From assembly GCA_035533015.1 (NCBI GenBank), contig DATLUQ010000049.1:1-32823 (forward strand): 32,823 nucleotides of DNA. The letters are read 5' to 3'. Under the pieces are notes generated by a model. That model was given only the letters and a program-made list of their open reading frames with translations. It was not told the DNA's origin and did no database searches. Position numbers and translations under genes: made by a program. This document shows, piece after piece, positions 2,913 through 18,217 of this stretch (position 1 is its first letter; each line of letters begins with the position of its first letter). The stretch comes from Gemmatimonadaceae bacterium. Lineage in GTDB: Bacteria; Gemmatimonadota; Gemmatimonadetes; Gemmatimonadales; Gemmatimonadaceae.

Positions 2913-3287
2913 TCAATCCGCCGGTGTATTGGGGCGGCGGCGAAGGGCGACGATGAGGCGGGTGAGCATGCCTTTGACCCGCGAGGACTGCGAGGACAAC
3001 GCCGGAAAATCGGCCGGGCGGCCGAGACCCAACCGCAAGGCGAGGGCGAGCTGGAATTCCAGCTCGGTGGCTGAGCCGAGCGCAATGTGAAGAAACGAGA
3101 GTCGCGCCGCGTTGCCGGAGCGGCCGCACCCCTCGGCGATGTTGGAGCCCACGGAGACAGCGGCCCGACGCATCTGGGATGAGAGGCCGAACCGTTCACT
3201 CGCCGGGAATGCGGTGGTGACACGGTAGGTGAGAACGGCGAGCGCCATGGCCTCGTTGGTGACTTTGAGATTGCGCGGATTCTGCAT
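2913..3287 (-). CDS. Four-helix-bundle protein, S23/23S rRNA intervening-sequence family
   Basis: A 124-residue protein starting at ATG 3287. The family signature is plain: FGLSSQMRRAAVSVGSNIAEG at about residues 33-53, a GR pair, then SFLHIALGSATELEFQL at about 64-80, followed by a last amphipathic helix and a basic tail. Known members form four-helix bundles, were first found inside 23S rRNA intervening sequences, and have no agreed cellular role; a related fold is the accessory protein of diversity-generating retroelements. Here there is no 23S rRNA and no reverse transcriptase nearby. The gene stands alone between typA and a divergent small gene. It is bracketed by inverted 8-bp repeat arrays at 2865-2896 and 3361-3392, suggesting a small repeat-bounded cassette. 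Family assignment is firm; function is unknown. Confidence 0.9.
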   Translation of the reverse strand: MQNPRNLKVTNEAMALAVLTYRVTTAFPASERFGLSSQMRRAAVSVGSNIAEGCGRSGNAARLSFLHIALGSATELEFQLALALRLGLGRPADFPALSSQSSRVKGMLTRLIVALRRRPNTPAD

Positions 3288-17168: not shown

Positions 17169-17200
17169 ATAGGTTCGAGCGCGGAGTGGGCATCAGGCGT

Positions 17201-17445
17201 GCATCCAGAACGGACCGGTTCATCCGGATGCTCCTGATTGAACGGATCCTCCGGATGGAAATGGTTGGGGGCTCCGGCGCGGAGATCCCCGTGGTCATCG
17301 CAGTCCCGATTTGGTGGGTAGACACCGCCGGCCGACCTCACCCCGGCGCGCCGAGTCTCCCCGTCGCAGCCCCCAGGTCAGTTGCAGTTGATCAGAAGCA
17401 TCCGATCAATCCGGAGCATCCGTGCGAACCCGTGCGTTCTGGATG
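17201..17445. mobile_element. Copy L of a ~240-bp element with 9-bp-iteron inverted ends
   Basis: The two ends are imperfect inverted repeats of about 56 bp (17201-17256 and 17390-17445, roughly 80% matching by eye), beginning CATCCAGAACG at each outer end. Each arm contains 9-bp iterons with a CGGAT core (CCGGATGCT, ACGGATCCT and similar). The centre includes CCGAGTCTCCCC and GTCAGTTGCAGTTGATCAG, shared with copy R at 17945-18185 in the same orientation. No transposase is encoded, so it resembles a non-autonomous, MITE-like element. With its flanks it fills the 17130-17561 gap, where I see no gene. Confidence 0.75.
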
Positions 17446-17561
17446 TCGGTTTGAATTGCGGCGTGTCTGCGTGCGCATCGGGCGCCCGAATTCCCGATTA
17501 AATGATGTGCGCCGCGTAGCTTTGGTGGTCCGGTCCGCTACCGGCGCCCCGAAGCTGGGGC

Positions 17562-17984
17562 ATGGCCCCCGGCGACCTACTCCACGAAGAACTCACCCAC
17601 TCGGTGATCGGTGCATTCTTCGAGGTCTACAACAGCCTCGGATTCGGTTTTCTCGAGCACCTGTACGTCATGGCGATGGAACGGGAACTACGCGCGCGTG
17701 GACATCGGGTGAGTCGCGAGGTGTACGTGCCAGTGAGCTACAAAGGGGAACTCCTGGGCAGGCAACGTCTCGATATGATCGTTGACGACGCGCTGGTGGT
17801 GGAGACCAAGTCCACCTACGAGCTGCACCGGGCCGCCACGCGCCAGGTCTACAACTATTTGCGCGCCACACTCCTCGATGTCGGTCTGCTGCTGCATTTC
17901 GGGCCGACACCCAGGTTCTTCCGGGTCATTGCGCCGCAGAAACTGCATCGAGAGCGGAGGGGTTGTACGGATACATCGGATTGA
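17562..17984 (+). CDS. GxxExxY protein (PD-(D/E)XK nuclease-like fold)
   Basis: A 140-residue protein from ATG 17562. The family-defining GxxExxY motif is GFLEHLY (residues 29-35). The nuclease-like core is Asp71 (QRLDMIVDD), then Glu81-x-Lys83 (VVETKS), followed by Gln95 and Tyr97 (RQVYNYLRA), the pattern of the PDDEXK_3 family. No substrate or role is established for these proteins. The gene stands alone between the divergent DUF58 operon and lepA, flanked by two direct copies of a ~240-bp inverted-ended element. Copy R begins inside the gene: residues 128-140 ([13 protein letters not shown]) and the stop codon are encoded by its left arm. No clear promoter or ribosome site is seen. Family call firm; activity untested, though the catalytic-type residues are all present. 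Confidence 0.92.
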
Positions 17985-18185
17985 CCGGATGCTCCGGATC
18001 GAGAAACCCGGTGGCTTCGGCGCCGAGATCTCCGTGGTCACCGCCGTCCCGGCGCGAGGCGTGGACATCCCCCAGCCGCACTCCGGCGCACCGAGTCTCC
18101 CCTTCGGAGCCCCCAAGTCAGTTGCAGTTGATCAGGAGCATCCGATCAATCCCGAGGTTCCGGCCGAACCGCTGGGTTCTGGATG
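17945..18185. mobile_element. Copy R of the ~240-bp iteron-ended element
   Basis: Aligns almost without gaps to copy L (17201-17445). Left arm 17945-17999 has iterons ACGGATACA, TCGGATTGA, CCGGATGCT, CCGGAT; the right arm 18130-18185 is its imperfect inverse, ending TTCTGGATG. Shared inner words include CCGAGTCTCCCC and GTCAGTTGCAGTTGATCAG. The left 40 bp lie inside the GxxExxY coding region. The element fills most of the gap before lepA; I see no gene in 17985-18298. Confidence 0.75.
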
Positions 18186-18217
18186 CCCGCAGAGCGCACC
18201 GGGCACACCGGCGCGGC

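Follow-up and report, generated by a model that had tools for sequence, protein, structure and literature searches.

Proteins of the GxxExxY and S23/four-helix families are annotated in many bacterial genomes without a role. A locus in the window, the whole 32,823-nucleotide stretch of Gemmatimonadaceae DNA analysed here, raises the question of what ties a gene of the first family to the repeats around it, as an intact GxxExxY gene lies there between two direct copies of a short palindromic element. An earlier note on this DNA had read the arrangement as a composite mobile cassette, in which elements without genes of their own surround the gene for a nuclease that possibly acts on them. Below, G000 denotes the genome of the window (its contig C49), G001 a sister species, and L-numbers denote loci.

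The left copy, L (positions 17201 to 17445, plus strand), is a solo-type palindrome with GCATC...GATG ends. In a BLAST search of the whole genome, the right copy, R (17945 to 18186, plus strand, with the alignment starting at 17944 or 17945), aligns with L as a direct repeat that is 78% identical (E 4.9e-49; lengths 242–245 bp), with ungapped blocks of 110 bp (86%) and 105 bp (72%) and homology in the central parts as well. The arms of both copies are built of 9-bp iterons of the CGGAT type (CGGATNNNN). Those of L (17201–17256, plus strand, and 17390–17445, minus strand; 54 and 57 bits with arm model R1) are 82% complementary over 55 nt, whereas those of R (17945–18000, plus strand, and 18130–18186, minus strand; 46 and 50.5 bits with the same model) are weaker, pairing over 23 nt at 91% and giving a 58-bp BLAST match at 78%. 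The outer arms of the two copies also pair mutually (17197–17256 with 18131–18190, 78% complementary). The locus is intergenic, with a DUF58 gene (leftward) and lepA (rightward) as neighbors. The GxxExxY gene (17562–17984, plus strand, 140 aa; supported by profiles, predicted structure and dN/dS) ends within R, whose left arm, on translation, encodes its last 13 codons and stop (17945–17984). The direct copies aligning over their whole length, the inverted iteron-built ends of about 55 bp and the gene 3’ end made from R had all been described in the earlier note, and all three were borne out. The last of these is a recurrent feature, given that the ORF stop falls within the downstream arm at 16 of the 50 loci that have such an arm.

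The window protein is a full member of the GxxExxY family (TIGR04256, E 3.6e-31, 107.9 bits against a cut-off of 35; PF13366, E 3.4e-33, 114.9 bits against a cut-off of 22), which is annotated without a role, and its closest named relatives come from Gemmatimonadota MAGs. Its active-site residues are intact: the putative catalytic positions are E32, D71, E81 and K83, plus Q95 and Y99, and across 84 relatives from the phylum these residues are near-invariant (E of the GxxExxY motif in 81, D in 83, E and K of ExK in 80 each, Q in 79, Y in 78). The combination of E, D, ExK and QxxxY is the pattern of PD-(D/E)XK nucleases of the Cas4/RecB type. A sequence search of solved structures yielded no significant match for the nuclease; the AlphaFold2 model, built from 8 sequences (mean pLDDT 85.8), best matched in the PDB SSO0001, which we take to be a Cas4 protein (E 1.6e-4, with a moderate TM of 0.55), followed by LHK-Exo and, less securely, lambda exonuclease. 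By residues and modeled fold, the protein is a predicted nuclease of the Cas4/lambda-exonuclease-like PD-(D/E)XK type. Comparison of the G000 gene with its G003 orthologue gave a dN/dS of 0.19, indicating that the nuclease is under purifying selection. PADLOC returned no match for this protein or for the S23 protein encoded elsewhere in the window, and the mentions of GxxExxY in the openly licensed literature are incidental, with no description there of an association with such elements.

To quantify that association, we scored inverted repeats within 350 bp of each gene, using 25 PIN-domain loci from the same relatives and 80 random window positions as controls. Inverted repeats scoring 40 bits or more accompanied 74% of 72 GxxExxY loci, compared to 12% of the PIN loci and 4% of the random positions; 43% of the GxxExxY loci, and 0% of either control, had inverted repeats of 35 bits or more with one on either side of the gene; and iteron-type arms were present at 37 of 84 GxxExxY genes in the phylum, compared to 2 of 25 PIN loci and 1 of 80 random positions. 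Because control genes and random positions mostly lack such repeats, those in the window are far above chance expectation. No strong inverted repeat was seen at 20 of the 84 GxxExxY genes, and the repeats at another 27 were of other kinds, some resembling plain terminator hairpins.

Such hairpins suggest an explanation in which the palindromes function in RNA, as bidirectional terminators or REP-like structures, and the nuclease gene is merely adjacent. The intergenic position of the palindromes is compatible with this, as are some loci outside the genus where plain terminator-like repeats are the only ones present. However, arm complementarity is no higher within elements than between elements of the same genome (0.748 and 0.725, 0.778 and 0.772, 0.769 and 0.774, respectively, that is, about 0.77 in both cases), so pairing is not conserved. 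No excess of compensatory pairing was detected inside elements, which reduces the weight of a pure hairpin explanation, the RNAalifold covariation term gave pairing no support, and the palindromes match no Rfam family. The arms are thus maintained as shared sequence rather than by pairing within the element, as expected if they are recognized by a protein. With iterons, sharp GCATC boundaries and empty sites, none of which would be expected of terminators, we regard the hairpin explanation as improbable.

The gene occurs in two arrangements. At L018, L019, L021, L032, L040–L042 and in G002, as well as in Bacteroides and Sphingomonas, it is enclosed by a single pair of inverted ends, whereas in the window, in G003, and at L013 and L015, there is a palindrome on each side of it. 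We take the first arrangement, end-gene-end, to be the basic autonomous one; insertion next to a solo copy, or a duplication, could have produced the second. Gene-less copies are numerous. Searching four congeneric genomes with a 58-position arm model and pairing convergent arms by hand from the listed arms, we obtained 29 convergent pairs (5, 13, 2 and 9 per genome), of which 24 lie away from any GxxExxY gene, the solo copies being about 160–245 bp long. The largest number in the genus, 13 pairs, is found in G001, which nevertheless has no GxxExxY gene with these arms in an assembly that is 93% complete; its solo copies may be relics, or the cognate gene may be unassembled. The earlier note had linked its proposal to elements and genes being found together. 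Elements turned out to be mostly gene-less, whereas most GxxExxY genes adjoin inverted repeats, many of them of the iteron type, a combination that fits the relationship between autonomous and non-autonomous elements rather than a refutation.

Orthologous sites differ in their occupancy. G000 and G003 share the L-gene-R arrangement, inherited in place, between the DUF58 gene and lepA, where G001 carries one solo element and no gene; a site with a single copy, of the kind that the earlier note proposed to look for, does exist. The site after lepA holds a solo copy in G001 and G003 and none in G000, and the gene-bearing element of G002 is absent from the orthologous site in G003 and G000. The L007 site is occupied in G000 and G003 by a copy of 166–169 bp and has none in G002, whereas in G001 it holds a 73-bp palindrome (L277:101-173, contig C272 of G001) that is barely more than two arms. 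One pair of orthologous solos (L007:1419-1587 and L261:101-266) has an arm that is 95% identical and located on the opposite side, with the orientation of the center unchanged, for which a partial flip or arm conversion is possible. Elsewhere, two pairs of orthologous sites in the genus g22 (L076/L190 and L170/L177) have flanks that are 75–89% identical and GxxExxY genes that cannot be aligned as DNA, suggesting gene replacement or very fast change in place, and G059 contains several broken pieces of GxxExxY genes (L100, L103, L187 and L188), indicating decay or rearrangement of copies.

These comparisons bear on the composite cassette, that is, a composite transposon in which L and R would carry the nuclease as cargo in one unit of 985 bp. 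In its favor, the gene has direct copies to either side in G000 and G003, the palindromes on both sides at L013 and L015 are similar in layout, and the sister species has a single copy. Recombination between L and R, however, would be just as likely to leave that single gene-less copy; end-gene-end forms are common at other loci; and the unit has no transposase, no bounding target duplication and no second location in the whole genome. The gene-less elements and the orthologous site with one solo copy lend the earlier note support, whereas the composite as a mobile unit finds little credence with us.

The element ends are sharp at GCATC/GATGC, and the flanks show a weak, GC-rich preference. 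For the genus elements, we found no sign of target duplication: the flank score averaged 5.34, within the range of the null (mean 5.01, sd 0.19, maximum 5.71). Insertion between conserved genes without target duplication, polymorphic orthologous sites and a nuclease as the sole gene would also be features of a homing-type enzyme that cuts element-free alleles, the element then spreading by repair from occupied ones. Homing keeps to one site, though, and the same ends are found at many unrelated sites per genome, with flanks that have only the GC-rich preference in common, so we consider homing very improbable. No near-identical recent copies were found among the elements; movement was therefore not caught in the act, which counts against the reading that we favor below.

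The same anatomy is present in Bacteroidota and Alphaproteobacteria, and the pattern is therefore not local. In a survey of other phyla that used annotated plasmid records, the gene in Bacteroides finegoldii proved to be enclosed by TTCACCACAGAGG...CCTCTGTGGTGAA ends between radA and an FAD gene, and that in Sphingomonas by TTCACGCGAAGG...CTTCGCGTGAA ends between fabD and fabG, where the right arm again lies within the ORF. Parabacteroides distasonis (radA-FAD) and Sphingomonas paeninsulae (fabD-fabG) provide the respective empty sites, and no target duplication was evident at either. Bernardetia has an element of the same design, a GxxExxY gene in Treponema is accompanied by a short inverted pair (ACACGGATTCG/CGAATCCGTGT), and the repeats in Fusobacteria, Persicobacter and Prevotella are less clear.

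Within the phylum, the arms are coupled to the protein. The two iteron classes, CGGAT and CRGAG, require 2 changes on the protein tree, compared to 9.8 when shuffled (0 of 500 shuffles as low), and a Mantel test restricted to pairs from different genomes gave r 0.17 (null sd 0.035, maximum 0.135). The GxxExxY genes of G018 have quite different arms within this one genome, showing that arms follow the gene rather than the genome. This link between iteron type and nuclease lineage is a further point in support of the earlier note. Co-descent of the gene and its arms as a unit explains the tree signal as well as recognition does; either way, gene and arms belong together.

The coupling also bears on the view that the solo copies are ordinary MITEs moved by an unrelated transposase, in which the nuclease gene has settled as a passenger or parasite. 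The abundance of solos in G001 without a cognate gene speaks for this view, and nesting of this kind does occur. In G067, seven sites (L180–L186) carry a MITE family of 300–390 bp that contains a GxxExxY fragment and ACACGAAG iterons and has terminal GTAGTGGGTCAGTTT and target duplications of 8–9 bp. We considered these copies as GxxExxY MITEs with target duplication and rejected them because their ends differ; we read the family as another kind of MITE that took up a GxxExxY element before multiplying. The passenger view sits poorly, however, with iteron classes that track the nuclease tree across genomes, with an association that recurs in several phyla with differing iterons, and with genus elements that lack target duplication, and we judge it rather unlikely.

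The reading towards which we lean, with somewhat more confidence than doubt, is a family of small selfish palindromic elements that have the GxxExxY nuclease as their autonomous gene and work in a REPIN/RAYT-like manner. It builds on the observed anatomy, the association with the gene, the solo populations, presence and absence between species, the coupling of iterons to protein lineage, the intact active-site residues and purifying selection; binding, cleavage and mobilization in trans by the nuclease are what we infer from them. The chief difficulty for this reading is G001, rich in solo copies but lacking a gene of this class; the GxxExxY genes that have no strong inverted repeat, and the terminator-like repeats at others, also speak against it. 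The autonomous form would consist of two inverted iteron ends around one nuclease gene, and the solo copies would be its derivatives without a gene, much like MITEs or REPINs. The nuclease would recognize iterons of its own class of element and nick or cleave at the inverted ends, and element and solo copies might thereby be copied or moved to intergenic sites with no duplication of the target. The gene in the window lies between two such copies and has one arm recruited as its 3’ end.

The window contains a second gene of comparable setting. The S23/four-helix gene (23S_rRNA_IVP; 2913–3287, minus strand; PF05635, 6.6e-32) lies beside typA, with a flanking inverted repeat of 37 bits and adjoining tandem repeats of the GTAGGAGG type in inverted arrangement. 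Inverted repeats are found on both sides at 82% of 22 S23 (TIGR02436) loci, and the iterons of these elements are 7–8 bp long, which suggests that S23 and GxxExxY elements are one design with two alternative proteins. More tentatively, and with less confidence than in the selfish elements as such, we suggest that they could represent a new class of minimal mobile element in several phyla, in which a sole Cas4/lambda-exonuclease-like protein recognizes terminal iteron arrays and mobilizes gene-less copies without target duplication, the S23/four-helix (IVS) elements being a second branch. If both proteins are residents of iteron-ended palindromes, one anatomical rule would explain single genes scattered between unrelated ones. 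A family of repeat elements would then have a Cas4-type nuclease as its only protein, which may bear on how enzymes of this type came to be recruited elsewhere. The nuclease and the gene-less copies in related genomes together suggest an unrecognized kind of small mobile DNA.

Among known systems, the 23S rRNA IVS of Coxiella encodes an S23 protein, with heptameric tandem repeats next to its gene, and has a terminal stem (PMC4990558). In common with the elements described here, it has one small gene enclosed by inverted ends, with tandem repeats alongside, but its protein is a four-helix bundle instead of a nuclease and the iteron period of S23 elements is 7–8 rather than usually 9; moreover, an IVS is an S23 gene in a 23S rRNA helix, whereas the window locus is intergenic and holds a nuclease gene. 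Like MITEs, the gene-less copies are short, non-coding and intergenic, with terminal inverted repeats; they differ in the lack of target duplications in the genus set, in iteron-array ends, and in that no related transposase was identified. A composite transposon does not fit either, as L and R are too short to encode a transposase and there is no target duplication. RAYT proteins act on REPs, which are 20–40 bp long and carry a GTAG/CGTC tag. The arms described here are arrays of 9-bp iterons spanning about 55 bp, and their ends are GCATC/GATGC with a GC-rich flank. In REPIN/RAYT systems, REP palindromes are paired with TnpA-REP, a Y1 HUH transposase (PMC3116915, PMC3686654, PMC8266576), whereas the window gene matches PF13366/TIGR04256 only and its predicted product is of the PD-(D/E)XK Cas4/lambda-exonuclease type. 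With an unrelated enzyme and no REP tag on its palindromes, the element does not belong to REPIN/RAYT. Nevertheless, many short gene-less palindromes accompany few gene-bearing loci per genome (24 of 29 pairs are solo), copies flank the gene (L and R in the window), target duplication is not evident, and the repeat class tracks the protein lineage, so that, by analogy and in its mode of life, the element resembles REPIN/RAYT populations.
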